DNA from: an uncultured Bacteroides sp. | Lineage (GTDB): Bacteria > Bacteroidota > Bacteroidia > Bacteroidales > Bacteroidaceae | DNA length: 57,956 bases | Assembly (NCBI GenBank): GCA_947646015.1 | Contig: CANSEY010000025.1 | Location: 1 to 57,956, forward strand | Reading direction: 5' to 3' | Shown: positions 10,072 to 28,507 of the stretch, one piece after another | How positions within the stretch are numbered: position 1 is the first letter of the stretch | Layout: each line of letters begins with the position of its first letter | Position numbers and translations under genes: made by a program | Notes under the pieces: model-generated | Database searches by the model: none | What the model was told of the DNA's origin: nothing | What the model saw: the letters and a program-made list of their open reading frames with translations, nothing else

Positions 10072-10120
10072 AAGATGAAAACATCAAGTACTATTATATA
10101 ATTTTAAAAATAATACAATT

Positions 10121-10795: not shown

Positions 10796-10812
10796 TATAT
10801 TCATAAAGTACC

Positions 10813-13158
10813 ATGATTAAACACTATTTGAAAGTAGCCTTTCGCAATTTGGTAAAGTACAAGACACAGAGCCTTGTCAGTATCATTGGATTAGCTGTTG
10901 GTTTCACTTGTTTTGCGCTGTCTGTCTTATGGATTCGTTATGAAATGACTTACGATACTTTCCATAACGGAGCCGACCGTATCTATATGGTACGTGCGCA
11001 TTATACTGATTCCCCTGGTAGTACATCCAATGTTACTCCTTACCCTTTGGCAAACTATTTACAGGAGAAAATGCCGGAGATAGAAGCTACTGCTTCCACT
11101 TCCATATATCGGGATATGAAATTCCGTATGGGAGATAATGAACAGGAGGTAGTAATGGCTACAGCAGATTCTGTTTTCATGAACTTTTTCAATATACGGC
11201 TGCTGAAAGGAACAGTCAACTTCCTGAAAGAAAATGATCCGGAAATCGCCATTACGGAAGAGTTTGCCCGAAAGCTTTTTGGCAGTGAAGAGGATGCTTT
11301 GGGGAAAGAAGTAGAACTGAGCGGACGTCCCCGTAAGATAGGCGCCATTGTGAGCGGATGGTCCCGTCATTCCAATATACCGTATAGTGTATTGAGTTCG
11401 GCAAGGCGCTATCCACGCTGGAGTAGTAAGGGAGAACAACTGTTTATCCGTGTTCGCGCAGGAGTGGATAGGGATACTTTTCAAAAGAAGATGGAAGACA
11501 TTGATATCTTGGATATTCCCAAAGAGAGCGAACTTGTGAAGCTTCTGATCACGCCCATTTCGGCTTTGCGTTATTCGGATTATGTTTCTAAAGTAGAGGT
11601 AGTTATCTCCTTCAGTTATATTTTCTATTTCTCTTTAGCAGGCGGATTGGTCATTATTTGTTCCTTATTCAATTACCTGACGCTTTATATCAGTCGGCTT
11701 TGCATGCGTAGTAGTGAAATGGCGCTTCGTAAAGTAAATGGTGCAAGTAATACATCTTTATCGGTGCAGTTTGCCATTGAACTGTTGTTGATTCTATGTA
11801 TCGCCCTGTTATGCGGACTGTTGATGATAGAGGTGAGTATGTCCAGCTTCCTGAACTTCACACAGATAGAGGCCAGTGTATATTATGGAGAGATCATTGC
11901 ATATCTTTTGATTGTAATCATTCTGTCTTTCCTGTTTGCACAGATACCTTTATCTTATTTTCGCCGTCGGACATTGCAGGAAGCGATAAAAGGGAATGTG
12001 GTAACTACCAGACCTTATCTGTTTCGTAAGATAGGAATTATCATGCAGTTAGTTGTCAGTCTTGCTTTTATCTTCTGTGCGGCTGTTATGATGAAGCAAC
12101 TCTATTTTCTGAAAAATACGGACTTAGGAATGGAACGCCATAATGTCGGTAATGTAGCCTTATGGAATGGTGATATTAAGCAATGGTCGGCGAAGATAGC
12201 TGCTTTGCCCATGGTGACAGAGGCTTTGCCCCCTTCGTATTTCCCGATTATTCCTACAGGACCGATGATGTATGTCGAAATAAACAACTGGGATGATTTG
12301 CCGAAAGCAGTGGAAGAACCTTTAACTGTTGGTATGATGCCTGCTAAAGAAGAATTCTTTGAATTTTATAAATTGAATTTATTGGAAGGCGAGTTTATAT
12401 CGGACAAGAATCAAGAAAATGAAGTCGTGATAGATGAAAATACATGCCGTAAATTTGGATGGAAACGGGCTTTGGGCAAAAGTTTCTATCATGAATATAA
12501 TGGTCAGCGTAGCCTATATAAGGTTGTCGGAGTAGTCAGGAACTTTAGCTATCGTTCTCCTACGAGTGAACCGGGACTGATTGCTTTTCAGCATCCTAAA
12601 GCGCAAGATTATCTGTTGAATCGTGCCAGCATTCTGTTTAAATTTAGAGAGGGCACGTGGAATGAATGCCGTGCGACCATAGAGAAACTGTACAGAGAGG
12701 AATTTTCGAATGCGTATATGCGATTGTTTAATGAAGAAGAGGAATATAACAAGTACCTCCGCTCCGAAGATGCACTGATGAAATTATTGAGTTTTGTATC
12801 ATTGGTTTGCGTCATTATTTCTGTATTCGGAGTTTTCTCATTGGTAACGCTGTCTTGTGAACAGCGTCAGAAAGAGATTGCTATACGTAAGGTGAACGGA
12901 GCGCAAATCCATCATATCCTGCAGATGTTCTTCCAGGAATATTTATTGTTATTGATCATAGCTGCCGTTATTGCATTCCCCACAGGATATGTTGTAATGA
13001 GGAGATGGATCGACAGCTACGTGAGACAAACATCGATAGATGGCTGGGTATATATAAGTATCTTTGTTGTGATAGCTATTATTCTTTTGCTTAGCATCAT
13101 TTGGAGAGTATGGAAAGCTGCCCGGCAGAATCCGGCAGAAATTATCAAGAGTGAATAA
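10813..13158 (+). CDS. MacB/FtsX-type ABC permease 2
   Basis: The 781-aa permease has the duplicated FtsX architecture described for permease 1. Its N-terminus (HYLKVAFRNLVKYKTQSLVS) and C-terminus (AARQNPAEIIKSE) are nearly the same as those of the next gene. The DNA around both ends is also very similar between the two genes, so they look like a tandem duplication. FtsX signatures EMALRKVNGAS and KEIAIRKVNGA follow the two helix bundles. It has no ATPase domain and presumably pairs with the ATPase encoded just upstream. Confidence 0.88.
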   Translation: MIKHYLKVAFRNLVKYKTQSLVSIIGLAVGFTCFALSVLWIRYEMTYDTFHNGADRIYMVRAHYTDSPGSTSNVTPYPLANYLQEKMPEIEATASTSIYRDMKFRMGDNEQEVVMATADSVFMNFFNIRLLKGTVNFLKENDPEIAITEEFARKLFGSEEDALGKEVELSGRPRKIGAIVSGWSRHSNIPYSVLSSARRYPRWSSKGEQLFIRVRAGVDRDTFQKKMEDIDILDIPKESELVKLLITPISALRYSDYVSKVEVVISFSYIFYFSLAGGLVIICSLFNYLTLYISRLCMRSSEMALRKVNGASNTSLSVQFAIELLLILCIALLCGLLMIEVSMSSFLNFTQIEASVYYGEIIAYLLIVIILSFLFAQIPLSYFRRRTLQEAIKGNVVTTRPYLFRKIGIIMQLVVSLAFIFCAAVMMKQLYFLKNTDLGMERHNVGNVALWNGDIKQWSAKIAALPMVTEALPPSYFPIIPTGPMMYVEINNWDDLPKAVEEPLTVGMMPAKEEFFEFYKLNLLEGEFISDKNQENEVVIDENTCRKFGWKRALGKSFYHEYNGQRSLYKVVGVVRNFSYRSPTSEPGLIAFQHPKAQDYLLNRASILFKFREGTWNECRATIEKLYREEFSNAYMRLFNEEEEYNKYLRSEDALMKLLSFVSLVCVIISVFGVFSLVTLSCEQRQKEIAIRKVNGAQIHHILQMFFQEYLLLLIIAAVIAFPTGYVVMRRWIDSYVRQTSIDGWVYISIFVVIAIILLLSIIWRVWKAARQNPAEIIKSE

Positions 13159-13173
13159 CATAAACACAATGTC

Positions 13174-15507
13174 ATGATATATCATTATTTAAAAATAGCT
13201 TTTCGCAATCTGATCAAGTACAAGACGCAGAGTATTGTAAGTATAGTCGGCTTGGCAATTGGTTTCACCTGTTTTGCATTGTCTGCCCTATGGATACGTT
13301 ATGAAATGACATACGATACGTTTCATGAAGGGGCGGAGCGCATCTACTTGGCAGGTAATAAATTTGATTTGCAGGGAGACGGATTTTCTTATTATTCATC
13401 CAGTTTGTTGGCTGATTATATAAAGAAAAACTGTCCGGAGGTGGAGAATGCTTGCCATATATATAATGGAGGTATAACTTCCATTGAACATGAGAAGAAT
13501 GTATATCATACATACCAGTTGGAAGTTGATTCTAACTTTATTTCAATGTTTAATATCATTGCGATAGATGGCGATAATCGTTTGAGACTGGGGGATAAAC
13601 AAGTTGCCATTACGGATAAAACCGCCAAAAAAATATTCGGAGAAGAATCCCCGATAGGCAAACAATTGCTATTTCCTGACAGAGGAAATGCTGAAATGAC
13701 GATTGTCGCAGTAGTAAAATCATGGGAAGGACATTCCATGTATCCTTTTGATATTTTGTTACCATATAAAGACCGAGATCCGGATTGGGGAAGACAGCAA
13801 TGCCATACTCTTTTCCGTATCTATCCGAATAGTGATGTAGAAGCTGTAGAGAAGAGACTGGCGAAATATAAAATACAACTGGACTCATATAGCCCGGTTA
13901 TATCTACTCCTATAGCTCCGTTATCAACATTGAGGAGTACTCATCCGAGGGAGGATATCAATGTCAAATTGAATCATGTTCGTCTTTTTGCTTGCATTGG
14001 AGCTTTGGTTATTATTTGCGGATTATGTAACTATTTAACAATGCTTGTAACCCGTATCCGAATGCGCAAGCGCGAATTGGCACTACGAAAAGTGAATGGA
14101 GCCTCCAATGGCAATCTTCTTTCATTACTCCTTTCAGAATTGATCTTGTTGCTTGTGCTGTCATTAGGCTTGGGAATCATGATGATAGAGTTAATTCTGC
14201 CTGTTTTTAAGGAGTTGTCGCAAATCGATGAGAGTACTTCATACTTTTATAGTGAAGTGTTTGTATATATATTATTATTGTTACTGATAACAATGGGTTT
14301 TGCAGCTATACTTGTGCGCTATGTCAACAAGCGGACATTGCTCGATAGTATCAATCACAAATCAAATCTTCATCTTTCCGGCTGGTTTTATAAAGGTAGC
14401 ATTTTATTCCAGCTTTTTATAAGTATTGGTTTTGTGTTCTGCACTTTGGTCATGATGAAGCAACTCAATTTTCTGCAAAATTCCAAAGAATTGGGATTGG
14501 AGAAACATAATGTGGGAGCCATTCTTTCTATTTATGGATTTGAAAATACTCCTTTCAAAGAGATACTAAAGCAGATGCCTGATGTAACAGAATGTTTATG
14601 TGGTTTTTCCAGTCCTATTCCTAAATCGTCATTTTCTTCTTATGAATTGAGGGAATGGGAAGGACAGACTGATAAAGAACAACGAATCAAATTAGAGAAT
14701 GAAACAATCAATCAGGATTATGTTGATTTCTTTCAGATAGACGTTATAGAAGGTGATATGTTGGATGAAAAAGACGGACAAGGAGTAGTGGTAATCAATG
14801 AAGCTGCCGTAAAAGCTTTCGGATGGTCTCAACCGATAGGTAAAAAGATATATCTGAATGAAGTTTGCACAGTGAAAGGTGTTATCAGAGATATATATTA
14901 TAATGCTCCGATTTATCCAGTGATTCCGGCTGTATTCTTTTTGCCGAAGGATAATCCGGGCAACGGAAACAGAGGGCCCTTTCTTTTTAAATTTAAAGAA
15001 GGTACATGGAAGACAGTATACCAAAAACTGCAGGAAGAGGCGCATAAGGACAATATGGATGCGGTATTGAACTTGATAAATATGGAAGATACCTATAATG
15101 AATACATGAAGTCAGAAAACACATTAAGCAAGTTACTGAGTGTTGTTTCTCTTATCTGTATCGTGATTGCCGTATTTGGCATATTCTCCTTAGTGACGTT
15201 ATCATGTGAACAGCGCCGGAAAGAGATTGCTATCCGGAAAGTAAACGGTGCAAGTGTAAAGGTCATTTTGAACTTATTTTTTAAAGAGTACTTGATTTTA
15301 CTTGTCATAGCGTCATTCATGGCCTTTCCATTAAGTTATCTCATCATGAAGTACTGGCTCGAAGGATATGTAAAGCAGACGCCGATAAACTTTTGGATAT
15401 ATGGAGGCATATTTGCAGGTATGTTACTTATAATATTCCTTAGCATCATCTGGAGAGTATGGAAAGCTGCCCGACAGAACCCGGCAGAAGTAATCAAAAG
15501 TGAATAA
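13174..15507 (+). CDS. MacB/FtsX-type ABC permease 3
   Basis: This 777-aa protein is the apparent tandem duplicate of permease 2, starting 15 bp after its stop. It begins HYLKIAFRNLIKYKTQSIVS and ends AARQNPAEVIKSE. The two proteins differ most in the periplasmic domains (about residues 65-260 and 425-630), which are where substrate or partner recognition would lie. The membrane parts and the RKVNGAS signature are conserved. A heterodimer with permease 2 is an attractive possibility but is inferred only. Confidence 0.88.
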   Translation: MIYHYLKIAFRNLIKYKTQSIVSIVGLAIGFTCFALSALWIRYEMTYDTFHEGAERIYLAGNKFDLQGDGFSYYSSSLLADYIKKNCPEVENACHIYNGGITSIEHEKNVYHTYQLEVDSNFISMFNIIAIDGDNRLRLGDKQVAITDKTAKKIFGEESPIGKQLLFPDRGNAEMTIVAVVKSWEGHSMYPFDILLPYKDRDPDWGRQQCHTLFRIYPNSDVEAVEKRLAKYKIQLDSYSPVISTPIAPLSTLRSTHPREDINVKLNHVRLFACIGALVIICGLCNYLTMLVTRIRMRKRELALRKVNGASNGNLLSLLLSELILLLVLSLGLGIMMIELILPVFKELSQIDESTSYFYSEVFVYILLLLLITMGFAAILVRYVNKRTLLDSINHKSNLHLSGWFYKGSILFQLFISIGFVFCTLVMMKQLNFLQNSKELGLEKHNVGAILSIYGFENTPFKEILKQMPDVTECLCGFSSPIPKSSFSSYELREWEGQTDKEQRIKLENETINQDYVDFFQIDVIEGDMLDEKDGQGVVVINEAAVKAFGWSQPIGKKIYLNEVCTVKGVIRDIYYNAPIYPVIPAVFFLPKDNPGNGNRGPFLFKFKEGTWKTVYQKLQEEAHKDNMDAVLNLINMEDTYNEYMKSENTLSKLLSVVSLICIVIAVFGIFSLVTLSCEQRRKEIAIRKVNGASVKVILNLFFKEYLILLVIASFMAFPLSYLIMKYWLEGYVKQTPINFWIYGGIFAGMLLIIFLSIIWRVWKAARQNPAEVIKSE

Positions 15508-15530
15508 CGTTATTATTTAATAAAAGCAAT

Positions 15531-17939
15531 ATGAAGAACCAATTATCTGCTATCAGGACTTTATCCCGTTTCAGAATATACACGATGATCAATATTATCG
15601 GGCTTGCAGTCAGTGTGGCTGCAACGTTGATAATTGTACGCTATATCCATCAGGAGATAACAGTTGACCATTTCTGTAAGGACCTGGACCGATTGTACTT
15701 GCTGACTATTCAAAGGAGTAATGGCAGCATTTCAATCACAGATAATACAGACAGGAATAATGATCCTAATTTTATAGACCCTTTAAAGAATCCGGAAGTA
15801 GAAGCATATTCTTATAGTGTTTCTTTTGACGATGATTATATTGTAGTCGATAATCACCGTTACCAGGCCAATGTTTTGGTAACTGATAGCTTGCTTTTGC
15901 AGTTGATGGACTATCCGATAGTTTCGGGAATTAAAACTATTCAGAAACCGGATGATGCAATTATTACCCGGAAATATGCCTGGCATATTTTTGGTGACGA
16001 AGACCCGATAGGGAAACAATTAACTTCATCGTCAGGTTCTGTACTTACCATTCGTGGCATTGTGGATGAACCGAGTACCAAGGCTTCTTTACAATTCGAC
16101 CTGATAGCTCCGGTGAATCAGGGGAAATATACAGACTGGAGTCGGATGGGATTCTGCATGGTCCGGTTGACAAACGGAACAGACCTGAAAAAGTATAATG
16201 AAAAGATTTCCAAGCCGCAGTCATTAATATGTTACAGTCATTCTCCCATACAGTACGGGCTTACTCCCTTGAAAGGATTGTATTTCAATAAGATTGTCGA
16301 ACCTTCGGCAGCTTCTTTTTTGCGGGGGAATATCAATCATGTGACGATTCTGACTGTAGTGGCTTGTATGCTGCTGTTGGTGGGAGTCTTCAATTTTATC
16401 AATATCTACACGGTTATCGTTCTAAAGCGGGCACGTGAGTTTGGTGTTAAAAAAGTATATGGTGCGAGCGGCTTTCAGATATTTATCCAGATTTATGTAG
16501 AGAATATATATATGGTGGCAGCCGCCTTGCTTATCATCTGGATGCTGATCGAAACTTCAGCCGGGATATTCGCCTCGGTATATGCAATTCCTGTAAAACC
16601 GGATATCGTTTTTGATCTGTCGCTGTCTCTCATTTTATTATTCGTATTGCCGTTGGTGACGTCTGTCTTTCCTTTTTTACGTTACAACTATTCTTCTCCG
16701 ATCACTTCTTTGCGTTCTGTAAATGCCGGAGGAAATTCAATTGTTTCCCGTGCAGTATTCTTATTTATTCAATATGTCATTACGTTCAGTCTGATAGTAG
16801 TCGCATTGTTTTTTGTTCGCCAGTTGTACACAATGCTGAATGCGGATTTAGGATATCAGGCAAAGAATATCATTTCATGCCAGTTCCTGTCATTCGAGAC
16901 ACAAAACAGAAGATATGCAAATGATGAAGAATGGCAGAAAGAACGTGACTTGGAGCGGCATAAGGTACAGGTTATTAAACAGAAGATGGACGCATGCCCT
17001 TTATTCATTTCATGGGGATATGGGGAAGCACCTATCAATCTGGAACCATACGTCAATGTGGAGAGTAACGGAGAGAAACATAAAATGGCTATCATGTATG
17101 TTAATAATAATTACATGAATATGTTTGGCCTGAAGCTGAAAGAAGGAAGAACGTGGAATGATAAAGACCAGTTTGCCCAATATAAAATGATGATAAATGA
17201 AACAGCCAGAAAGCTCTTCCGGATAAAAGATATTAATGAAGCTTCACTGCAAACCGAATCCCGTCTATGGTGGAGTGTGGGGACAGATGAGAGTAAAAAT
17301 CCTGCTTATCAGGTAGTAGGTGTGATAGAAGACTTCCGGACCGGACACTTATCTATGGGGGATGCATCACTGGCTATTCTGTATGATGAAGGAGAAAACC
17401 CTACCGAACCTTTAATGGCTAAAATAGCCGAAGGTAAACGCAAGGAAGCCATTCAATTCTTGAAGGAACTACACAACGAAGTAATGGGTGAGGGGGAGTT
17501 CAATTACTCCTTCGTCGAAGATGAAGTTGAAAAACTGTACGATGATGACAAGAGAACAACCCACATCTACGTCACCTTTGCCGGACTGGCTATCTGCGTT
17601 TCCTGCCTCGGATTGTTCGGGCTGTCATTGTATGACATTCGCCAGCGCTACAGGGAGATTGCATTGCGTAAAGTGAACGGAGCTACCGGCAAACAGATCG
17701 CTTTGTTATTGGTCAGGAAGTATCTTTATATTTTGGGAGCCGCCTTTGCTGTCGCTATTCCTTTGGTCTATTATATTATTAATGACTATACCAAAGACTT
17801 TGCGGTGAAAGCTCCGATAGGAGCAGGGATTTTTGTGACAGGCTTCATCCTTACCTTGCTTATCTCACTGGGTACATTACTCTGGCAGGTACGCAAAGCT
17901 GTCCGCATCAATCCGGCATTGATCATGAAGAACGAATAA
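15531..17939 (+). CDS. MacB/FtsX-type ABC permease 4
   Basis: The 802-aa permease has the same duplicated architecture and groups with permease 1: TLSRFRIYTMINIIGLAVS versus TLCRFKIYTIINIIGLALS at the N-terminus. It carries the same REIALRKVNGA motif and the same Arg-rich loop (DIRQRYRE versus DIQQRYRE). The C-terminus is INPALIMKNE. It could be the heterodimer partner of permease 1. It starts 23 bp after permease 3 and ends 27 bp before permease 5, so it lies within the same transcription unit. Confidence 0.88.
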   Translation: MKNQLSAIRTLSRFRIYTMINIIGLAVSVAATLIIVRYIHQEITVDHFCKDLDRLYLLTIQRSNGSISITDNTDRNNDPNFIDPLKNPEVEAYSYSVSFDDDYIVVDNHRYQANVLVTDSLLLQLMDYPIVSGIKTIQKPDDAIITRKYAWHIFGDEDPIGKQLTSSSGSVLTIRGIVDEPSTKASLQFDLIAPVNQGKYTDWSRMGFCMVRLTNGTDLKKYNEKISKPQSLICYSHSPIQYGLTPLKGLYFNKIVEPSAASFLRGNINHVTILTVVACMLLLVGVFNFINIYTVIVLKRAREFGVKKVYGASGFQIFIQIYVENIYMVAAALLIIWMLIETSAGIFASVYAIPVKPDIVFDLSLSLILLFVLPLVTSVFPFLRYNYSSPITSLRSVNAGGNSIVSRAVFLFIQYVITFSLIVVALFFVRQLYTMLNADLGYQAKNIISCQFLSFETQNRRYANDEEWQKERDLERHKVQVIKQKMDACPLFISWGYGEAPINLEPYVNVESNGEKHKMAIMYVNNNYMNMFGLKLKEGRTWNDKDQFAQYKMMINETARKLFRIKDINEASLQTESRLWWSVGTDESKNPAYQVVGVIEDFRTGHLSMGDASLAILYDEGENPTEPLMAKIAEGKRKEAIQFLKELHNEVMGEGEFNYSFVEDEVEKLYDDDKRTTHIYVTFAGLAICVSCLGLFGLSLYDIRQRYREIALRKVNGATGKQIALLLVRKYLYILGAAFAVAIPLVYYIINDYTKDFAVKAPIGAGIFVTGFILTLLISLGTLLWQVRKAVRINPALIMKNE

Positions 17940-17966
17940 GATTAAAAACGACTAAGATTACAACGA

Positions 17967-20324
17967 ATGGAACGAACTGCTATGGAAAACCTCGTACTAT
18001 TAAAACTTATATTCAGAAACTGGTGGCGCAATAAACTTTTTGCGGTCATCTCTTTGGTCAGTCTTGTGGTCGGTATTTCCTGTACCAATCTTCTGATCTC
18101 GTTTGTCATCCATGAATATACGATAGAAGGGGAAAATCCAAAGAAGGACCGTATCCTGCGCCTGACTCAGCGACTGCCATCCATGCAGAGCACCGGACAA
18201 GTATCATTTGTCTACGGAGGATCGGTTGCCGGAATGATAGCTCCGTTTCCGGAGATTGAATCTTATCTCCGGCTGACCGAGAAGGAGGCAACTCATATTG
18301 AAATTGAGAACCAGCGCTTTCCTCAACAGGTCATTGTTGAGGCCGACAGTTCTTTCTGCCGTTTTTTCCCGTACCAGATATTGTCCGGCAATATGAAAGA
18401 AGCCTTGACTAAGCCGGACTGTATTGCTTTGAGTGAAGAAAAGGCCATGCAATACTTCGGGAAGTTCGATTGTATCGGGCGAGAACTTTCTGTGGTATAT
18501 GGAGATAAAGTTGAAATGAAAAAGGTATCTGCCATATATAAGTTTTATGCGCAGTCAGCACTCCGTATTGATTTGCTTGGTAATTCTCAGAACCTGCAGG
18601 AAGAAGGAACTTCCTGTATGATTCTTCTCAAAGAAAAGACTGACGTGTCAGCCTTTCGCGAGCGTTTTGAGTCAACAGAACTGCCTACAGTGACAGGTCC
18701 CGGTTATTATAAACTCCAGACATTACAAGAATCCTACTTTGACACAAAACTGGCTGATTCCGTGAAAACATTCAGTCATCGGCAGATCGCTTTGTTGAGT
18801 ATCGGTTTATTATCAGCTTTTCTTGTCTTATTCATCGCTTGCTTCAATTACGTAAACCTAAGCTTTTCGCGCCTGCTGAAACAAGTAAACATGATTCATG
18901 TAGAGACATTGATGGGAGCTTCTCATTCATATATTTGCCGGCAACTTTTTATTGATACATTCCTTACCGTATTTATCGCTTTCATCCTTTCCATTCTTGT
19001 AATGGGGGACATACTTTCTCTTTTCAATTATTTCTTTGATGCCCGTCTGACTTTCGGTTTCATTCTTTCATGGAAAGTCTTTCCATTTATTCTTCTGTTT
19101 GTTTCTCTTTTGGCCATTATACCGGCCACCTATATGACGAAGAAACTGAACCGCATTTCTATCAGCGGATATCGGCAATTTTTTCAAGGGAGAAAAAGAA
19201 GAAGACTGGTAGCGACCCTTGTAGGCGTGCAAATGGTTATCTCCATCGGATTGATGACTGCCTTTATGATGATACGTACGCAACTTTCAACCATAGAAGG
19301 GCAGGGTGAACGCTTTAAAGGAGTTATAATCTTAGGTAATGAGGGGGCTGCCTTGACTATCCCTTTGTATAATGACATTAAAAACCTGCCCGGTATCCAA
19401 ACTGCCCTGTTATCCAAAGGGCGGATAACGAGTCCTTTTAATATCATCATTCCACTAAACAGGAATGGGCAGGAAGTAATGGTAAATAAAGTTTTATTGA
19501 CCGAGAACTATGGACTGCTGGACTTATTCAACATAGAACTTCTCGAACCGGAACGAACGGAGGATTTATTTTCCAAGGTAGCCCATCCGGTAGTTGTTAA
19601 TGAAGCCTTTGTACAGTTCTTTGTACCGGGAGGAGAAGATCCGGTGGGGCAGACCTTAAGCAAATATGAGCAGGACAACGCCGGTGAAGGAACTATTATC
19701 GGTGTGTGCAAAGATTTCAGACTGACTTCTTTCAACTCTGCCATTACTCCGATGCAGATTATTCTTCAAGAGATTCCGGTCGATCAGGCAACCTACCTGT
19801 CTTGTCGTATAGATGAGGGCAGACGCAATGAGATAGTAAAAAATCTCCGGTTGCTGTGGGAGAAACACGAGCCGGGACATTCTTTTGTTTACATAGACGC
19901 CTATCAGCAATATATATCCAACAATACAGATATGGTGAATTTCTCCCGATTATTACTGGCTTATGCTATAATCAGTTTGTTCCTGACCCTTTTTGGTATC
20001 TTTGGAATTACATGGTATGCGGTAGAACAACGAAAAAGAGAAATTGCGATTCGTAAAGTACACGGTGCCTCTTCCCGCCAAATTCTATTGTTGTTGAATC
20101 GTCCGTTCTTCTATTATATTCTGATAGCCGACATGATCGCTATTCCTATCGTATATGTCTTGATGAAACGGTGGAGGGAACAGTTTGTGTATCCTACGGA
20201 TTGGGGAATAGAAGTATTTATAGTACCTGTCGTCTTATTGATGCTTGTAACGTTTGTCACAGTTGTCCTTAACGGATATCATACGGCATTAAGTAATCCG
20301 GCTGAGACTATTAAAACGGAATGA
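17967..20324 (+). CDS. MacB/FtsX-type ABC permease 5
   Basis: The 785-aa permease is the last gene of the operon and the most diverged of the five. It begins after MERTAMENLVLLKLIFRNWW, and either Met1 or Met6 could be the start. It keeps the FtsX signature REIAIRKVHGASS and the closing SNPAETIKTE. Two periplasmic domains are separated by the first helix bundle around residues 275-385. With no paralogous partner in the operon it may act as a homodimer or couple with any of the others. A strong hairpin follows after about 125 bp. Confidence 0.87.
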   Translation: MERTAMENLVLLKLIFRNWWRNKLFAVISLVSLVVGISCTNLLISFVIHEYTIEGENPKKDRILRLTQRLPSMQSTGQVSFVYGGSVAGMIAPFPEIESYLRLTEKEATHIEIENQRFPQQVIVEADSSFCRFFPYQILSGNMKEALTKPDCIALSEEKAMQYFGKFDCIGRELSVVYGDKVEMKKVSAIYKFYAQSALRIDLLGNSQNLQEEGTSCMILLKEKTDVSAFRERFESTELPTVTGPGYYKLQTLQESYFDTKLADSVKTFSHRQIALLSIGLLSAFLVLFIACFNYVNLSFSRLLKQVNMIHVETLMGASHSYICRQLFIDTFLTVFIAFILSILVMGDILSLFNYFFDARLTFGFILSWKVFPFILLFVSLLAIIPATYMTKKLNRISISGYRQFFQGRKRRRLVATLVGVQMVISIGLMTAFMMIRTQLSTIEGQGERFKGVIILGNEGAALTIPLYNDIKNLPGIQTALLSKGRITSPFNIIIPLNRNGQEVMVNKVLLTENYGLLDLFNIELLEPERTEDLFSKVAHPVVVNEAFVQFFVPGGEDPVGQTLSKYEQDNAGEGTIIGVCKDFRLTSFNSAITPMQIILQEIPVDQATYLSCRIDEGRRNEIVKNLRLLWEKHEPGHSFVYIDAYQQYISNNTDMVNFSRLLLAYAIISLFLTLFGIFGITWYAVEQRKREIAIRKVHGASSRQILLLLNRPFFYYILIADMIAIPIVYVLMKRWREQFVYPTDWGIEVFIVPVVLLMLVTFVTVVLNGYHTALSNPAETIKTE

Positions 20325-20448
20325 TCACTATGAATATGTAGTTCTTCAGTATCCAGTTTCTAAGAAGATAAAACGTTCTTCTTTTGCCGTTGACTTTGAA
20401 GCTAATCAACCGTTGGAAAAACAGGAAAGGTGGCATCGGACAAAATAA

Positions 20449-20480
20449 AAGCTACTCTCTTTGGGGGAAGAGAGTAGCTT
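20449..20480. terminator. Terminator between convergent operons
   Basis: A perfect 13-bp stem (AAGCTACTCTCTT / AAGAGAGTAGCTT) has a 6-nt G-rich loop. On the minus strand it is followed by TTATTTTG, so it best terminates the leftward lipoprotein gene's transcript; it may also end the permease operon. Confidence 0.75.
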
Positions 20481-20539
20481 GACTTCAAGATACACTATAG
20501 AGTGCACTTGCTATAAAATACCTATCGAATGCTCATGTG

Positions 20540-21871
20540 TCAGTTAATAATAGTGCCCTTGACATCCAGTTCTCTGATAGCAGCGACAGTACTGTTTCCT
20601 CCGTCATCGGGAATCGTGAGTCTGATGTAACGTGCTTTGATCGATTTTACATAATATTCCAGGGCGGCATCCTGATTCGTGAATCCGAATCTGCCGATAG
20701 GAGTCCAGTTCACGTTATCTTCACTAGCTGCAAACTCGACCACTTTGATAGGATTGTTTGAACCTCTGCCGCGCGGAAGCAATTCCACCTGTGCTATTTG
20801 TATGTTTTGCTTCATATCTATCACAATATCATACGGTAGCGGGTCGCTTCCACCTTGCCATTTGGCATGCCAGAATGTTTCAGTGTCTCCGTCTATCAGA
20901 CATTTGGCTAATCCATTGCCGGCTCCTTCTCCCGAAGCTTCCTGTGTCGTAAAGGACAGAACTTCCCAGCCGCTCTTTGATATTTTCGTTCCTTCTTTTA
21001 TGATGCAGAATCCTGTGTAGGTGTCTTTATCCGCACGGATAGTGGCATCGGAAGTAACTTCGCCTATTTGCACAGGAAGCATATAATTTCCCGGAAGAAT
21101 GTTATCTTTCAGCTTGTAACTGACTGTGGTCTGATCAACTCCCTGAGACAATGACGGGGATTCGGGTTTGGTATAGCACTCTGCCGGCAGAAGACTGAAA
21201 TAAGTCTGATTGGCACTGTTGTACGTATCTACTACCGACTGGTTGTTGACTAATGTACAGTTGATGTTCCATTTATTGCTAAAAGGTACTCCAATGGTAA
21301 TCGGCAACTCTTTTACATTGTTGACATTGATTTCCTGTATACCATCGTTTATGATAGTTACAATGGGTTCGGAAACTTTAAATCCCAGTAGGAGGGTGGA
21401 ACGGCCGGGGTTCAACTTCTCTCCTGTAGTGCTTGCTTTGAGTGGGAGAATGTATTGAACATTGTCATAGCCGCACAACGCATGAATCTTTGTCGGGTCG
21501 TATACGATAGTGCCTTTTGCCAGTCTGTCACCGGCAGATACGTTAACCGTTGTGTTAGTCATTTGATAACAATCTTCCGGAAGTATCTGGTAACTGGTTC
21601 CGTCGGCAGTATTGAGTGAGTCGAGCAGGCTTTTGTCTACGGTGAAGGTGACGGTACTGTTATTCAGTTCCAGTCCTCCGTGTTGTATCCATAAGTCAGC
21701 ATTGTATTTTTCTCCTACATTATACGATTGCAGAATAGTCAGTCCGTTTTCAGACAATGACAAAATCCCTTCGGATGTATTGCTCGTATCAAAGGTTTCA
21801 TCACAACCGATAATAGAGAGAGTGATGCAACCTGATATTAGTATATAACTTATTTTTCTCATAATGCTCAT
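20540..21871 (-). CDS. Surface lipoprotein with DUF1735 and F5/8 type C (discoidin) domains
   Basis: The start is placed at ATG 21871; ATG 21862 is an alternative, and a TTG at 21892 lies upstream. The signal peptide ends in the lipobox LSIIGC. Two DUF1735-like modules follow, with repeated motifs of the type LLDSLNTADGTSYQILPEDCY and YFSLLPAECYTKP. The C-terminal part (WHAKWQGG, IAQVELLPRG, VKSIKARYIRLTIPDDGG) is a discoidin/F5-8C carbohydrate-binding domain. In Bacteroides such proteins sit beside SusC/SusD and act as surface glycan-binding proteins. It begins right after the SusD-like gene, so it is operonic. The ligand is unknown. Confidence 0.85.
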   Translation of the reverse strand: MSIMRKISYILISGCITLSIIGCDETFDTSNTSEGILSLSENGLTILQSYNVGEKYNADLWIQHGGLELNNSTVTFTVDKSLLDSLNTADGTSYQILPEDCYQMTNTTVNVSAGDRLAKGTIVYDPTKIHALCGYDNVQYILPLKASTTGEKLNPGRSTLLLGFKVSEPIVTIINDGIQEINVNNVKELPITIGVPFSNKWNINCTLVNNQSVVDTYNSANQTYFSLLPAECYTKPESPSLSQGVDQTTVSYKLKDNILPGNYMLPVQIGEVTSDATIRADKDTYTGFCIIKEGTKISKSGWEVLSFTTQEASGEGAGNGLAKCLIDGDTETFWHAKWQGGSDPLPYDIVIDMKQNIQIAQVELLPRGRGSNNPIKVVEFAASEDNVNWTPIGRFGFTNQDAALEYYVKSIKARYIRLTIPDDGGNSTVAAIRELDVKGTIIN

Positions 21872-21892
21872 TGATTTATTGTGCTTATACAA

Positions 21893-23791
21893 TTACCAGC
21901 CCGGATTCTGGACGAGGTTTTGTGTCTTTCTCATTTCGTGATCCGGTATTGGCTGTAAGTACATCTTTCTGTTGAATACAATTTTTTCAGTTTCCACTAC
22001 GCGGTTGAACTCTTCGGTATCATTGATAGTTCCCCGAACATTCATACCGTGTGCATATCCGTTCTGGCGTCCTTCACCGTCTTTGTCGGCAATCATCCAG
22101 CGGCGTACATCAAAATAACGTTGACCTTCCGTTGCCAGTTCAATCTGACGTTCGCGCTGAATGGCTGCTCTTTGCAATTCTTTATTACCTACGATACCGG
22201 GATTCAGTATTTCTACTTTCGGCAAGCCTGCCCGTTCGCGTACGAGGTTCAGATAAGTCAGTACGCGTGAGTCGCTCGGATTTACTTCGTTGGCAACTTC
22301 TGCATATATCAGATAGAAATCCGCCAGACGGAAGATTATGGAAGGACGGTTCTGACTAGCTACACCCGGACTGGTTTTGCTGATTGATCGGTTGAAGCGC
22401 TTGAAAAGCATATATCCGGTTGTAGTGGCTTGTCCTTCCTGAACGCCTGCATTACCTCCATTGTAGAACTGGACTTGTTTGCAGGTGACAGGCCATTGGC
22501 GTCCGTTGAAGAAGACAGTGTTGTAGAAACGTGCTTCACGATTCAGATAGCGGTTACTGACTGTTACGTTGGTGTAGTTCTTAGAGTATTTTCCGTCATT
22601 CTTGTCCTTGTAAGTTCCGTAACCATCTTCTTTATAAAGTGTTGATTTCGGCAGATAGTCGGTTTCCTTGATAGGAAGTCCGTCGTTCATATAGAAGGCG
22701 TCTACGAGTTCTTGCGTTACTCCGGTCGAACCCAAACCGTTCTTTTCGCAGCGAGGAACGATTCTTCGGTCGAATGCGTCACCGTCAAGTCCTCCCCAGT
22801 CGTTGTTGGCGGTGCCCCAGATGATTTCTTTATTGTATTTCTGAAAGAGGTTGTAAACGGAGGCATCTACGTCTAGAATCTGTTCACCGGTGCTGCTTGT
22901 TGTATATTCTTTGTATAACTCGTAGCGGTTTCCGGTTTCTGCGTAATCGATGAAATCTTTGCAGGCGTTTAATGCAGTATTCCATTTGTTGTCATCACGA
23001 TCCGGGAAGAGTCTTGTACCGTCTGGGTTGGTCAGAGACAGCGCTTCTCTGTATCCCCCGTTGAGAAGGGGGCTGGCTGCATATAGCCACAATTTGGCAC
23101 GTACGGCCAAAGCGACACCTTTGGTTGGCCATGCGCGGTAAGATTCATTTTCGTGCATCGGTTCCTGTGGCAGTTCATTAGCTACTTCACGTAGTTCCTG
23201 ATCAATATACGTGATAACTTCATCTACCGTATTTCTGGGAACATCCTGAGTCTCTGTCGCCTCGTATACCTTATCTTTTACGAGGATAATAGGACCGTAT
23301 TGTTCCAATAGCAGATAATTGTAAAATGCACGCATGAAGCGTACGTTGGCACGCATCTCATTCAGTTCGTCTTCTTCCAGTCTGTCGCCTTGCGTACCGC
23401 TGGTTGTAATCACATGAGCTTTCTCTAGGAAAATGTTAGCCTGCCGGATGTATTTATAGCAGTCGCCATAGCGGTGAAAACCAGCAGTCGCCGCATTCTT
23501 GTCCGAGTTGTTGGCCTTGGCAGCATTTCCATAACCTACTACTAGTTCATCGCAGATTGCAGCCCACGGATTTTTAAAGGCTCCTACATTCAGGCTGTTT
23601 ATTCCCGAATAATCGGGGATTCCTGCAAAGACATTGGCATACCATCGTTTGGTATAGGCTACGTTTTCAAATATTTGATCTGTATTTTGCAAGCCTCCTG
23701 ACATCTGGTCCGAAACAGCCAGATAATCACATGAACTGACGGAGAAGAATAATCCCATCAGCAACATATATATGTGACTTTTACTTTTCAT
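21893..23791 (-). CDS. RagB/SusD family nutrient-uptake lipoprotein
   Basis: The 632-aa protein has a signal peptide and lipobox (FFSVSSC). It has the SusD-like alpha-helical TPR core: ANIFLEKAHV, MRANVRFMRAFYNYLLLEQYGPIIL and the later KGVALAVRAKLWLYAASPL. The C-terminal RagB/SusD domain includes IIFRLADFYLIYAEVANE, LNLVRERAGLP and RERQIELATEGQRYFDVRRW. It would cap the SusC-type barrel and capture a glycan or peptide ligand at the cell surface. It starts 20 bp after the SusC-like stop. Confidence 0.93.
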   Translation of the reverse strand: MKSKSHIYMLLMGLFFSVSSCDYLAVSDQMSGGLQNTDQIFENVAYTKRWYANVFAGIPDYSGINSLNVGAFKNPWAAICDELVVGYGNAAKANNSDKNAATAGFHRYGDCYKYIRQANIFLEKAHVITTSGTQGDRLEEDELNEMRANVRFMRAFYNYLLLEQYGPIILVKDKVYEATETQDVPRNTVDEVITYIDQELREVANELPQEPMHENESYRAWPTKGVALAVRAKLWLYAASPLLNGGYREALSLTNPDGTRLFPDRDDNKWNTALNACKDFIDYAETGNRYELYKEYTTSSTGEQILDVDASVYNLFQKYNKEIIWGTANNDWGGLDGDAFDRRIVPRCEKNGLGSTGVTQELVDAFYMNDGLPIKETDYLPKSTLYKEDGYGTYKDKNDGKYSKNYTNVTVSNRYLNREARFYNTVFFNGRQWPVTCKQVQFYNGGNAGVQEGQATTTGYMLFKRFNRSISKTSPGVASQNRPSIIFRLADFYLIYAEVANEVNPSDSRVLTYLNLVRERAGLPKVEILNPGIVGNKELQRAAIQRERQIELATEGQRYFDVRRWMIADKDGEGRQNGYAHGMNVRGTINDTEEFNRVVETEKIVFNRKMYLQPIPDHEMRKTQNLVQNPGW

Positions 23792-23811
23792 ATTTTTATC
23801 TTTTATGGTTT

Positions 23812-26800
23812 TTAGAATGTGAAATCAAGACCGATTGTATAGGTTCGCGGCAGCGGATAGTTAAGTCCGGCATTCGCATTTCCGGCTTCCGGATCGAAAT
23901 ATTTGATATGATCCCATACTGCCAGGTTATATCCCATCAGATAGATACGGGCAGCTTCGAAGCCGATCTTGCTTAAGAATTTCTTAGGTATCTGATAGCC
24001 GATTTCTATATTCTTCAATCGGAGGAAAGAGCCATCGCGCAGCCACCATGTATTGGCAACGCGGTTATTAGCATTGTTCGCATTGCTCTTGTGCAGACGG
24101 GGAATAATTACATCCTGGCTCGGATTGTTCTCTGTCCAACGGTTTAATGCAAAGGTGCGATAGTTGGACTGGTCTACACCCCATGAGAATGGGTACCATC
24201 CTTCGGAAGTCTTTCCACCCAATAATACAGAAGTGTTCCCTGCTCCCTGGAAGAAGATGCTGGCGTAGATTCCTTTATATTCGGCATTTAAACCGAATCC
24301 GTAGATAATTTCCGGAGTTTCCGGATGACCGATTCCTCTTACACGGTCATAAGAGTCGATGATTCCGTCTCCATTGACGTCGGTATATTTGATGTCACCG
24401 GGACCAAGGAGTCCGCCTAAGGTTGGTTGTGGAATTTCCGAACGGAGTTTATAAGTCTTCAGACCGTTAGCGTTGGTGCTTACGGTAAAGTCGTCTTCGG
24501 TATAAAGTCGTTCTGCGATGTAATAGAGATTATCTTTATCACTGACACGTTTGCCCGTAATAGCTTGGTAGTCATACTTTGGAGGAAGTTCATCATATTC
24601 CAGAATTTTATTGCGGGTGAATGTGAATGTACCTCTTGCGCTAAGTTTTACCTTGCCTATATTTTGATGAGCGTTCACAGACATGTCAACACCTCTGTTG
24701 CGAACCTTACCGAAGTTTTGCCACGGATCGTCTCTCAGACCGCCAAGCTGGGGAACAGTCTGACGTTGCAGCAGAATCTGGCTTCTGGTAGAATCGAAGT
24801 AATCAAAGATAACTTCAAGACGGTTGTCAAACAAGCCGATATCGAAACCGTAGTTTTGTTTGTCTTCTACTTCCCATCCCAAGTAAGGAGCTGCAAAACG
24901 TCCTTCTATGATGCCGTTGCCGATACCGTTCAGACCGCCTCCGGTATCATTGTAACCTTGCGTAAAACCTCCGGCATCCATTTTGTAGGTCGGACGGTAC
25001 AAGAAACGGGTTCCTCCTGTATTGTCGTTACCGGCACGTCCGACAGAGGCTCTTAATTTGAGTTTGGGGACATACTTTTTGATTACTTCCGGGTAGAAAG
25101 ACTCATTGGAAATGTAGTAGGCAAGACCTACTGCCGGGAAGAAACCGAAACGGTTGCCCGAAGCAAATGCTTCCGAACCGGTGTATCCGAAGTTGCCTTC
25201 AATGAAATAGCGTCCGCCGTAACCGTAAGTTAAACGTCCTACCAGACCTTGCTTACGATAGGGAAGTGCTACATTGTGATATTGGGTTTCCTTTTGCATG
25301 TACAATAGCATGGCACCTACTTCGTGCTGGTCGAACGTACGTTTATAGTTGATGGCAGCATCTATGTAAATCTTCTTGGTTGCGCTTGTCGCACTATTCT
25401 TAGGGTCCTGCAATTCAGGGTTTCCGGATACGACTGTGGCAAATAATAGATTGCCGTTTTCGTCGCGTCCCGTAGCATGATATCTTGTCGGATTATATTC
25501 ACGGCGAACGATCATTTCACTATCATAGTCATAACTTGCGTTCAGGCGTACAGACAAACCTTTGGTGATAAAATCCAGTTTCTGGTCTACATAAACTTTG
25601 GATTGAATGGCAGTACGGTATTCTTTGGCGTATCCGGAGTTCATCAATAAGTTGTACGGGTTGCGCATGTTAGCGTCACGTTCCTGTGAGTAGGTTGAAA
25701 CAGTACCATCACTGTATACAGCCGGAAATGTATAAGGAGGAGTAATCAGCATGGAACGGAATATATTGGCAGTTCCTGTTCCCGGATAATTATTAACCAG
25801 ATACTGAAGTGCGAGGTCAACTCCTACAGTTGTAGTGCTTGATACGTTCATATCAATATTTGAACGAAGATTGATACGGTCGATGCCGATGTTTGTATTA
25901 TATTGTTTGGTAGGACTTCCTTTGAAAATACCACTTTCGTTGTAATATGCTGCCGAAACAAAGTATTTTGCTTTTTCTGTACCTCCACGTACATTCAAGG
26001 TATATCTGTGTGTGAATGTGTTTTTACGTAACATTTTGTCGATCCAGTTGGTATTTGGATATAGGTCCGGATCGTCATTGTTCCGGTAATGTGCAATTAA
26101 GTCATCCGAAAACTGCGGTAATTCCCCATCATTATGGAGTGCTTCGTTGAACAGGTCCAGATAGTCGGCCGAACCAACGAATTCGGGAAGACGGGTGGGG
26201 GAAGAAATGGTGTGTTCTGTCTTGAATGAAATCTTTGCCTTCTCTACACGTCCGCGTTTGGTAGTGACAAGTACTACACCATTGGCTCCCTCGGCACCAT
26301 AAATGGCTGTTGCAGCGGCATCCTTCAAAACCGAAAACGTTTCGATTTCGTCGGGTTCAATATCACTCATGCTTCTGGGTACACCGTCCACAAGTACCAG
26401 TGGAGATGTACCACCCGCAAAGGTACTTACGCCTCGAATCCAAAACTCTGCGTTATCATATCCGGGTTCACCCGAACGTTGTACTGCAATCAAACCGGCG
26501 ACTTGTCCGGCAAGACTGTTATTCAGGCTTCGCGAAGGGACAACGATATCCTTTGGTTTGATGGAACTCATAGAAACGACTACGCTTTCCTTTTTCTGCT
26601 GTCCGTAGCCGACTACTACAACTTCGTCCAGCGCTTTGGAGTCTTCGTTCAGCATCACATTGATGTTGCGGCGCCCTTTTACTTTTATTTCTTCGGTTAC
26701 GTATCCAAGATATGATACTTGCAAAATTGCATTGTCGGAAGGAATCATAATCTGATAACGTCCTTCTACATCGGTTATTGCTCCGACGTTTGATTGTCCT

Positions 26801-27024
26801 TTTACTACAACATTGGCTCCGATGATAGATTCTCCTTTGCTGTCTGTTACTACACCTGTTATTTTAATCTTATTTTGTTGCGTTGTTTCTGAACTCTCTA
26901 TGCCATTCATCGGCTTTTCCGCATTGCCGGCATTTATGAGTGGAGAAAAACATAAAGAAAAGAACAGAACACCGATTCGCGCGGTTGTGTGCACTTTGTT
27001 TGAAGTAAATAAAATGTTTTTCAT
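23812..27024 (-). CDS. SusC/RagA family TonB-linked outer-membrane protein
   Basis: This is a full-length 1070-aa transporter. The N-terminal signal segment (GVLFFSLCFSPLINA) is followed by a carboxypeptidase-regulatory-like domain (about 53-130). The plug begins after DEVVVVGYGQQKKESVV and includes LAGQVAGLIAVQRSGEPG, and then comes the long beta-barrel. The last strand ends YTIGLDFTF with a terminal aromatic, as in outer-membrane barrels. No STN or FecR-interaction domain precedes it, so control by an anti-sigma factor is not expected. It imports the ligand captured by the SusD-like partner. It lies downstream of an apparent invertible promoter. Confidence 0.94.
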   Translation of the reverse strand: MKNILFTSNKVHTTARIGVLFFSLCFSPLINAGNAEKPMNGIESSETTQQNKIKITGVVTDSKGESIIGANVVVKGQSNVGAITDVEGRYQIMIPSDNAILQVSYLGYVTEEIKVKGRRNINVMLNEDSKALDEVVVVGYGQQKKESVVVSMSSIKPKDIVVPSRSLNNSLAGQVAGLIAVQRSGEPGYDNAEFWIRGVSTFAGGTSPLVLVDGVPRSMSDIEPDEIETFSVLKDAAATAIYGAEGANGVVLVTTKRGRVEKAKISFKTEHTISSPTRLPEFVGSADYLDLFNEALHNDGELPQFSDDLIAHYRNNDDPDLYPNTNWIDKMLRKNTFTHRYTLNVRGGTEKAKYFVSAAYYNESGIFKGSPTKQYNTNIGIDRINLRSNIDMNVSSTTTVGVDLALQYLVNNYPGTGTANIFRSMLITPPYTFPAVYSDGTVSTYSQERDANMRNPYNLLMNSGYAKEYRTAIQSKVYVDQKLDFITKGLSVRLNASYDYDSEMIVRREYNPTRYHATGRDENGNLLFATVVSGNPELQDPKNSATSATKKIYIDAAINYKRTFDQHEVGAMLLYMQKETQYHNVALPYRKQGLVGRLTYGYGGRYFIEGNFGYTGSEAFASGNRFGFFPAVGLAYYISNESFYPEVIKKYVPKLKLRASVGRAGNDNTGGTRFLYRPTYKMDAGGFTQGYNDTGGGLNGIGNGIIEGRFAAPYLGWEVEDKQNYGFDIGLFDNRLEVIFDYFDSTRSQILLQRQTVPQLGGLRDDPWQNFGKVRNRGVDMSVNAHQNIGKVKLSARGTFTFTRNKILEYDELPPKYDYQAITGKRVSDKDNLYYIAERLYTEDDFTVSTNANGLKTYKLRSEIPQPTLGGLLGPGDIKYTDVNGDGIIDSYDRVRGIGHPETPEIIYGFGLNAEYKGIYASIFFQGAGNTSVLLGGKTSEGWYPFSWGVDQSNYRTFALNRWTENNPSQDVIIPRLHKSNANNANNRVANTWWLRDGSFLRLKNIEIGYQIPKKFLSKIGFEAARIYLMGYNLAVWDHIKYFDPEAGNANAGLNYPLPRTYTIGLDFTF

Positions 27025-27049
27025 AATTTTGATTTTAAAATAATAACTA

Positions 27050-27072
27050 GTTTACCGGTTTTGTTTGTAAAC
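27050..27072. repeat. Inverted repeat in the susC leader
   Basis: GTTTAC and GTAAAC arms are separated by 11 nt, 26-48 bp upstream of the susC-like start codon. It may be an operator or an RNA hairpin in the leader; nothing here decides. Confidence 0.35.
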
Positions 27073-27185
27073 GATAGGGATGGTAAATCATAATACTGTA
27101 ATATTTCCATAGGCATTGATTGTGTGTTGATTTTTGATTAAAAATTAGGTTGTGAAATATAGAATTTAGTAAACTCTAAGGCGGT

Positions 27186-27207
27186 ATAAGTTCATGGAGA
27201 ACTTGGT
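27186..27207 (+). repeat. Left inverted repeat of the inverton (IR-L)
   Basis: This 22-nt sequence is the exact reverse complement of 27445-27466. Its core is AGTTC-ATGGA-GAACT, a dyad with 5-nt spacer such as a tyrosine recombinase would bind and cross over within. Confidence 0.8.
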
Positions 27208-27352
27208 GGGATGAGTATTATGAGTACATATTAATTTCAAATACCTCCTGAAATATTACTTTATCAGAATTATAAAAGGAAAAGATAGGGTAAACGAAGA
27301 AATAACTTTTAAAAAAAGCATCAATTTATAGCGTATTTCTGAAAAATATAAC

Positions 27353-27360
27353 TATTTTTG
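27353..27360 (+). promoter_or_regulatory. Candidate -7 element inside the invertible segment
   Basis: TATTTTTG matches TAnnTTTG and points away from susC in this orientation. No good -33 TTTG is seen at the right distance, so the promoter assignment is tentative. Confidence 0.45.
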
Positions 27361-27444
27361 TCGCCAACAAAGCAAAGAAAATCATTCAATATTTGTAAAC
27401 CTTAAATTTTCAAAAGATGAAAGCTTATTTTTCTAAAATCTGCT

Positions 27445-27466
27445 ACCAAGTTCTCCATGAACTTAT
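27445..27466 (-). repeat. Right inverted repeat of the inverton (IR-R)
   Basis: The exact reverse complement of 27186-27207, with the same AGTTC-N5-GAACT core. Identity extends over 22 nt and then ends on both sides. Confidence 0.8.
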
Positions 27467-27708
27467 CTGAATATATCCTTAATTTATCTATTATTTATCT
27501 GATTATTAATATATTGTATGTTTGATCGGAATGAGCTAAAATAGTATTTAACATATTCCTGTTTTGTCTGTCTTATCCTTATTTTACGTTTTGTATAATT
27601 ATATATGTATCATTATTTTGTAATGAGCGTGTGCCGGTATAGAAAAACTTTTAATGCCTTATTTCAATTAATTTTAAGCAGGTTCATGGGAAAAACAATT
27701 TTAAAAAT

Positions 27709-27716
27709 TACCTTTG
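27709..27716 (+). promoter_or_regulatory. Promoter -7 element for the small lipoprotein pair
   Basis: TACCTTTG matches TAnnTTTG and lies 34 bp before the start codon at 27751. The gene therefore need not depend on the invertible segment. Confidence 0.55.
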
Positions 27717-27750
27717 CAATATTCTAAGTTTTATCTCAAATAAAAAGCAT

Positions 27751-28134
27751 ATGAACAAAATGAGAGTTTTTTTATTGTTTGCTGTTTTGGTTGGTGTGAT
27801 AAGTGCTTGTCAATCAAAGAGCGAACAGACTGCGGGACAAGAGCAGGATACTATGGATGATAGTCTGGCTGTTGCTCCTACAGAAGATGAGAAAACAATC
27901 TTCGGGGTAGTAGAAGATGCTTCGATGAATAATTTTATGTTGGTTACTTCGAAAGGAGATACAGTGTTCGTCAGTACGATGGATCAGGAGCCGAGTGAAG
28001 TCGGTGGCTTCGAACTGGGAGACACCGTACAGGTGAATTACATAGAAGAAGAGGAAGAGCCGGGATCGAATACGATACCAACTGCAAAGAAAGTGATTGT
28101 AGTAGGGAAGAAGGCGGATCGGACTAATGACTAA
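27751..28134 (+). CDS. Small acidic lipoprotein, unknown function
   Basis: This 127-aa protein has a signal peptide with lipobox VISAC, then an acidic Gln/Asp/Glu linker. A compact domain of about 80 residues follows, predicted mostly beta (KTIFGVVEDASMNNFMLVTSKGDTVFVS and later DTVQVNY). The beta pattern is reminiscent of small OB-like folds, but I cannot assign a family. It is followed after 25 bp by another lipoprotein gene and the two are likely co-transcribed. It faces away from the SusC operon across the inverton. Confidence 0.7.
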   Translation: MNKMRVFLLFAVLVGVISACQSKSEQTAGQEQDTMDDSLAVAPTEDEKTIFGVVEDASMNNFMLVTSKGDTVFVSTMDQEPSEVGGFELGDTVQVNYIEEEEEPGSNTIPTAKKVIVVGKKADRTND

Positions 28135-28159: not shown

Positions 28160-28507
28160 ATGAAAAAGAAAATGTTGGCAGCAACTCTGTTGATGGGTTT
28201 ATTGGCTGCATGTGGAGGTAACTCTGCCTCAATTGTTGGCTCATGGGTAGAACCTGTGCCGGGACTGGAAGGACAAGTACAAGGTATTAAGATGGAAGAA
28301 GGAGGCGTTGCTTCTTCTGTCAATATGGCTACTTTGGTTTATGAAAGCTGGAAACAGGAAGGAACTAAACTGATTCTGACAGGAAAAAGTATCGGTAATG
28401 GCCAGACGATTGAATTTGTGGATACGATGGATATCAAGAGACTGACGGCTGATTCTTTGGTTCTGGATAACCAAGGAATGGAAATTCGTTACGCAAAGCA
28501 GAAGTAA
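28160..28507 (+). CDS. Lipocalin-like small lipoprotein
   Basis: The 115-aa protein starts with a lipoprotein signal (LMGLLAACGG). It contains the phrase SIVGSWVEPVPG, typical of the first strand of Bacteroidetes lipocalin-like domains, followed by alternating strands (EGGVASSVNM, TKLILTGKSIGNG, DSLVLDNQGMEIRYAK). It is short for a complete eight-stranded barrel, but similar short forms exist in Bacteroides. Function is unknown. It is the second gene of a two-gene unit that ends at a strong hairpin. Confidence 0.7.
   Translation: MKKKMLAATLLMGLLAACGGNSASIVGSWVEPVPGLEGQVQGIKMEEGGVASSVNMATLVYESWKQEGTKLILTGKSIGNGQTIEFVDTMDIKRLTADSLVLDNQGMEIRYAKQK

Follow-up and report, generated by a model that had tools for sequence, protein, structure and literature searches.

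A nutrient-importer operon of a gut Bacteroides that seems to have swapped its sensing system for a random switch

Introduction

Among described systems, the one closest to the locus considered here is the Tsr0667 (BF0667) regulon of Bacteroides fragilis, for which Nakayama-Imaohji and colleagues reportedly described, in 2009, promoter inversions together with shufflons at SusC/SusD clusters. We take the site consensus of Tsr0667 to be AGTYYYN4GDACT, and the class assignment of both the repeat arms and the enzyme discussed below depends partly on this premise. Invertible SusC/SusD promoters are already known; some importer operons switch randomly and others sense their substrate. In an excerpt of PMC4747536, Tsr0667 is credited with the shufflon inversions at SusC/SusD clusters, and the study of its regulon is cited in a passage of PMC12632263. 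Searches of open-licence PubMed Central papers for the repeat sequence of our locus or for AGTYYYN4GDACT found only primers and unrelated papers.

Here we analyse a stretch of 57,956 nucleotides from an uncultured Bacteroides sp. (contig CANSEY010000025.1, positions 1 to 57,956; hereafter the window), in which a SusC/SusD operon is preceded by an element bounded by inverted repeats (Table 1).

Results

An inverted-repeat element upstream of susC

The initial annotation had reported perfect 22-nt inverted repeats around 237 bp upstream of susC, each containing AGTTC-ATGGA-GAACT, and this description holds: each arm carries one copy of the core or of its complement, and arms and inner segment together form an element of 281 bp, whose left arm begins 161 bp upstream of the susC start. 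No perfect inverted repeat at the element exceeds 22 nt. When the window was shuffled 30 times under a first-order Markov model, inverted repeats spaced by less than 1000 bp had a maximum length of 12–15 nt, and the 22-nt repeat is thus not a product of chance. The arm site AGTTCTCCATGAACT matches the Tsr0667 consensus, on one strand only. An excerpt of PMC7366714 gives TAnnTTTG as the -7 consensus for the housekeeping sigma factor of Bacteroides, and its sole occurrence in the inner segment, TATTTTTG at 27353 on the plus strand, points away from susC; no leftward TAnnTTTG was found across 27025–27750. On both counts we agree with the initial annotation, which had the only inner motif facing away from susC and none facing leftward in the segment or between it and the gene. 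A search for a -33 box found no TTTG 17–23 bp before the -7 box at 27353. Inversion would place TATTTTTG on the minus strand at 27292–27299, leaving 268 bp between it and the susC start. In the transcript predicted for that state, an open frame of 31 codons (27021–27116, minus strand) overlaps the susC start codon and could possibly be either a leader peptide or a chance frame.

Table 1 Features of the operon, the element and their surroundings (window coordinates, except in the last row, where locus and position are given)
Feature	Position	Strand	Remarks
FtsX-domain gene	17967-20324		inside the stretch missing from G101
Stretch missing at the matching place in G101	17940-27690		FtsX-domain gene, operon and switch
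Third operon gene	20540-21892	-	BT_3987-like N-terminal and F5/8 type C domains; 64% identical to the G109 counterpart
susD, 632 aa	21893-23791	-	80% identical to the G109 counterpart
susC, 1070 aa	23812-27024	-	TonB-receptor Plug and CarboxypepD-like domains; no STN domain found
Left arm, perfect 22-nt inverted repeat	27186-27207	+	ATAAGTTCATGGAGAACTTGGT; core AGTTC-ATGGA-GAACT at 27189-27203
Inner segment, 237 bp	27208-27444		putatively invertible
TATTTTTG, sole TAnnTTTG (-7 box) in the segment	27353-27360	+	points away from susC
Right arm, complement of ATAAGTTCATGGAGAACTTGGT	27445-27466	-	core at 27449-27463
TACCTTTG, likely own -7 box of the gene at 27751	27709-27716	+	TATCTTTG at the same place in G101 and G012
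127-aa ORF on the far side of the switch	27751-28134	+	lipoprotein by eye; no Pfam family
Lipocalin_3 gene	28160-28507		comes after the 127-aa ORF at 27751
GGATAATACCC, leader motif	L188:13708, L189:6029, L190:13968, L191:10456, L192:10581		sites in five loci

Orientation of the element

The locus recurs in a sister genome, G059 (CAMQVH010000014.1, an uncultured Bacteroides MAG, ERR8099095), which is 97% identical to the window over 19.9 kb and in which arms and -7 box are unchanged and lie in the same orientation. Among 158 genomes of the genus, the exact arm core occurs only in G059 and in the window's own bin, and one orientation was found in both genomes carrying the locus. The comparison of orientation among related genomes that the initial annotation had proposed turned up no reversed copy, either in the one other genome with the locus (0/1) or among 14 loci that form six ortholog groups of elements of this kind (the window element included), a comparison from which the L089–L118 duplicates of other loci and ambiguous paralogous SusC clusters were excluded. 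The window element was assembled without a break, and one orientation therefore dominated in the sample.

Contig ends at other elements of the bin bear on the activity of the class. In three contigs (C21, C49 and C90) the end falls no more than one base from an AGTTC core, against an expectation of 0.012 such ends (Poisson p 3e-7). C21 and C49 match the outer flanks of one and the same element of G109, a genome of the B. fragilis clade, at 99.8 and 99.7%, the 428-bp inner segment of that element being missing between them. Such a gap would be expected if both orientations coexist in the sample, and points indirectly to activity of the class.

The bin (G000) appears to be composite, with DNA from two or more Bacteroides species: the compared stretches of contigs C1, C21 and C49 are 99.5–99.8% identical to G109, C6 is 86–89% identical to G001, and the window contig is 97% identical to G059. 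Claims about the window's species therefore rest on G059.

The site class and a candidate recombinase

In the window's bin, AGTTCN5GAACT occurs 18 times, against seven for a reversed control pattern, and AAGTTCN5GAACTTGG was found in 41 of the 158 genus genomes, against 14 for the control (counted from table). Across 49 loci, most of them picked because they hold such a site, 28 inverted core pairs lie 60–900 bp apart, and 24 of these lie no more than 700 bp from a SusC start; cores of the same class enclose different inner segments before other SusC genes. By its arms, the window element is very probably a new member of the already known Tsr0667 class of invertible SusC/SusD promoters. The direction of TAnnTTTG in 24 elements (a count that leaves out G037, G126, G058, G151, G159, G049, G174, G178, G043, G188, G047:C33 and some others) is away from SusC in 12, towards it in three and both ways in five, with no motif in four. 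Away-facing motifs are thus in excess of those facing SusC (12 to 3, binomial p 0.035; 8 to 3, p 0.23, once orthologs are grouped, one of the eight, L139, having a SusC frame on each side), and this excess therefore fits a default OFF state without proving it.

Sites of the class also stand before a different kind of gene. At the end of contig C90 (L018, position 1), an AGTTC core lies upstream of a gene for a 181-aa ECF sigma factor (Pfam), and a complete core pair precedes the homolog of this gene in G001 (contig C47; L169, 3670–4104), where, as at C90, the ECF sigma factor itself may be switched by inversion.

The candidate enzyme is a tyrosine recombinase of the L032 family (domains Arm-DNA-bind_5, SAM_5 and Phage_integrase in two G000 copies), members of which were found in 95 of the 158 genus genomes at E <= 1e-60. 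The gene is intact in G059 (C17:9426–10607), and the mixed bin holds two homologs. Perfect inverted copies of AGTCTTTGCAGAACT, which matches the Tsr0667 consensus, bracket the recombinase gene in three places: G059, contig C1 of the bin, and G109. In the first two of these, two divergent SusC-type genes flank the recombinase, one of which lacks an N-terminal CarboxypepD-like domain, and after them comes a SusD gene; by this arrangement, the G059 cluster appears shufflon-like, and the setting fits the part in such inversions that PMC4747536 ascribes to Tsr0667. The G109 copy, at 0.71 Mb, presumably lies near the position expected of BF0667, and from the SusC/SusD setting and this presumed position we infer that the recombinase is an ortholog of Tsr0667. 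The recombinase co-occurs with paired sites in 17 of 18 genomes (Fisher test, p 0.0008), but a control recombinase of another site class does so in 15 of 18 (p 0.009; genome lists for both tests were compiled by hand), and because the control is also significant, co-occurrence was not used as proof. Seven other tyrosine recombinases of G000, of about 315 aa, were rejected as the enzyme, as GTTAC-N7-GTAAC, a different site class, comes after each gene; this motif lies about 10–50 bp past the stop codon in L043, L044, L045, L047, L048, L049 and L052.

Absence of the STN domain, FecR and ECF sigma factor

Close homologs of the window SusD (E <= 1e-180) occur in eight of the 158 genus genomes, the bin and G059 included, and a scan of genome contigs found 15 loci across Bacteroidota; from both scans together, 16 distinct homologous loci were examined. 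At all 16, a FecR gene lies upstream on the same strand and the SusC protein (1138–1160 aa, versus 1070 aa in the window and G059) has an STN domain at E <= 0.001, above the Pfam cut-off in 14; an ECF sigma gene lies upstream on the same strand at 15 of them, none having been found at L209. By comparison, neither the window SusC nor that of G059 has an STN domain at E <= 0.001, and no ECF sigma or FecR gene was found at E <= 1e-4 in window 10001–40000 or in G059 (L143, L197). The best match of the G109 FecR anywhere in G059, a MAG that is 71% complete, is 38% identical, and the best in G000 is 33%. Residues 45–1070 of the window SusC are 86% identical to residues 128–1150 of the STN-bearing SusC of G109, and between the window and G059, SusD and SusC are 98% and 99% identical.

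In a maximum-likelihood tree that included 14 of the 16 STN-type SusC proteins (L202 and L203 were left out), the window and G059 sequences join three STN-type SusC of the B. fragilis clade (five rows, 100/100), and this group nests, with a midpoint root, within the set of 14 STN-bearing rows. From this nested position, the lack of STN is most simply explained as a derived loss. Outside the STN-bearing set stand the other rows without STN, those of L210 and of the second operons in the B. fragilis clade. The leader motif GGATAATACCC is absent from window 27025–27750. This motif is kept between FecR and the STN-type susC in five genomes, where by eye it lies within a short inverted repeat. In a homologous operon of B. 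fragilis Q1F2 (L199:11914–13232), the BT_3987-like gene appears to be split into two frames.

A Pfam scan covered 12 of the 24 SusC genes that neighbour AGTTC core pairs (those of the window and G059, which are orthologs, that of the second operon in G109, and nine others), and 11 of these lack STN. The second SusC/SusD operon of G109, G014 and G113 adjoins the sigma-controlled operon and has an AGTTC element in front, and in G109 its SusC is among those without STN. A derivation of the window's switch from this neighbouring B. fragilis invertible element was considered and found no support, as the match between the two is confined to 47 bp at the arm (E 0.033). The one SusC that does bear STN, that of L172, has a FecR gene on the far side of the element; the L172 core fails the Tsr0667 consensus on both strands and its inner segment of 137 bp contains no TAnnTTTG, and L172 could therefore simply be a sigma-type operon of the usual kind whose core pair arose by chance. 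STN-less SusC and inversion appear to go together in these few cases.

Chromosomal site

The equivalents of window positions 17939 and 27691 are separated by about 30 bp in G101, and in G012, G102, G106 and G001 the operon is likewise missing, the FtsX-domain gene that ends at 17939 adjoining the gene at 27751 (in G001, 532 bp lie between the matches that flank the operon-free site). These five genomes thus lack a stretch of about 9.75 kb made up of operon, switch and one FtsX-domain gene. The window operon stands at a new chromosomal site. A row of similar-sized genes (777–802 aa) occupies window 7696–20324; its last two genes, the only ones scanned, have FtsX domains, and the very last is missing at the G101 site.

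Discussion

We consider it very likely that the 281-bp element is a phase-variable promoter of the Tsr0667 class, and that the operon behind it is a derived relative of operons controlled by ECF sigma factor, FecR and STN which has lost these parts and taken up a new site. Under this explanation, a trans-acting tyrosine recombinase, the species' own homolog, would recombine the two AGTTC-N5-GAACT arms and so flip the 237-bp segment: in the sequenced state the promoter would fire away from susC (OFF), and in the flipped state it would fire into susC (ON), the distance from -7 box to start codon then being 268 bp. The ancestral operon would have been governed by three parts that were later lost, namely an ECF sigma factor, the anti-sigma factor FecR and the STN domain carried by SusC. 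With moderate confidence, we further posit that this control went together with the STN domain, that a random, recombinase-driven switch at a new site stands in its stead, and, more generally, that the two modes may exclude each other.

We infer that this copy inverts and that an enzyme of the G059 type inverts it. Were the element instead a relic, with arms and promoter kept on a segment that has stopped inverting and an operon that is silent or read from elsewhere, one would expect what we see in part: one orientation in both genomes, an assembly without a break and six ortholog groups without a reversed member. Yet arms and -7 box are unchanged despite a divergence of 3–4% between the genomes here, SusD and SusC are nearly identical in the two, and G059 keeps an intact recombinase with flanking sites, all of which make a relic improbable. 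The 281-bp unit with its terminal inverted repeats could also be read as a small, MITE-like transposable element, the repeats being its ends and not recombinase sites; with no direct repeat of 2–10 bases abutting the arms, with cores of the same class enclosing different segments before other SusC genes, and with a variant of the core flanking the recombinase gene, we give this reading almost no credence.

Two further readings accept inversion and differ on what it would control or on the state that was sequenced. The segment might act as a two-way toggle, driving susC in one orientation and the gene at 27751 in the other, and the -7 box does currently face that gene with no ORF of at least 100 aa between. 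The gene at 27751 has, though, its own likely -7 box (TACCTTTG at 27709), with TATCTTTG as its match in G101 and G012; both of these genomes lack the switch yet retain the box, which argues against a toggle, as does a further TATGTTTG at 27517, and we hold the toggle to be very improbable. Alternatively, the element may be invertible and have been sequenced in the ON state, its real promoter being something other than TAnnTTTG, a reading that clashes with our preferred explanation on the state only. The 27353 site has no -33 box and away-facing motifs are common among such elements, both of which would suit an ON state, but no leftward TAnnTTTG lies inside the element or between it and susC, and in three comparable elements the motif does face SusC; an ON state is on balance unlikely. 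Under the preferred explanation, then, the window element was probably sequenced in the OFF state, inversion of this copy would change that state, and expression of the operon would follow orientation. What stands of the phase-variable promoter proposed in the initial annotation is the site class, the link to SusC and the matching kind of recombinase in the sister genome, whereas inversion of this particular copy stays an expectation; the OFF call made there fits the direction of the -7 box, but turns on one -7 box without a -33 box and falls short of proof. The change of regulator lies outside the coordinates 27186–27466 that the initial annotation covered.

In one nutrient-importer operon of a gut Bacteroides, random switching seems to have replaced control by a sensing system. 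Both modes occur among close relatives whose SusC proteins are 86% identical: the B. fragilis-clade operon has its sensor parts and the window operon its switch. The two make up a matched natural pair in which it becomes testable whether random switching arises from the liability of an importer (as a phage or immune target) or from an unpredictable substrate. Among open-licence PubMed Central papers, we recognised from titles and the starts of abstracts no description of STN/ECF sigma control being exchanged for inversion of a SusC promoter, and such a replacement of sensing by random switching within a single operon may be new.

Comparison with known systems

Mpi and Tsr19 probably act at repeat sequences other than the AGTTC-N5-GAACT arms. 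These two B. fragilis systems resemble the window locus in that promoter inversion controls surface molecules, but, according to an excerpt of PMC4747536, they act on other genes (capsule and EPS/vesicle promoters), and Mpi is a serine recombinase. In FecI/FecR-type control, in which an ECF sigma factor and an anti-sigma factor act with an STN-bearing SusC, the parts accompany the homologous operon at the 16 loci examined (the sigma gene at 15 of them), whereas STN, sigma factor and FecR are all missing from the window operon and its surroundings; the window operon differs in this from its relatives, B. fragilis strains included, which have the system. With respect to the Tsr0667 regulon, inversion is reported there and predicted here from sequence, and the likenesses are these: the arms fit the consensus, a promoter-sized segment lies before susC, and the recombinase homolog of the sister genome sits in a SusC/SusD cluster with inverted sites.
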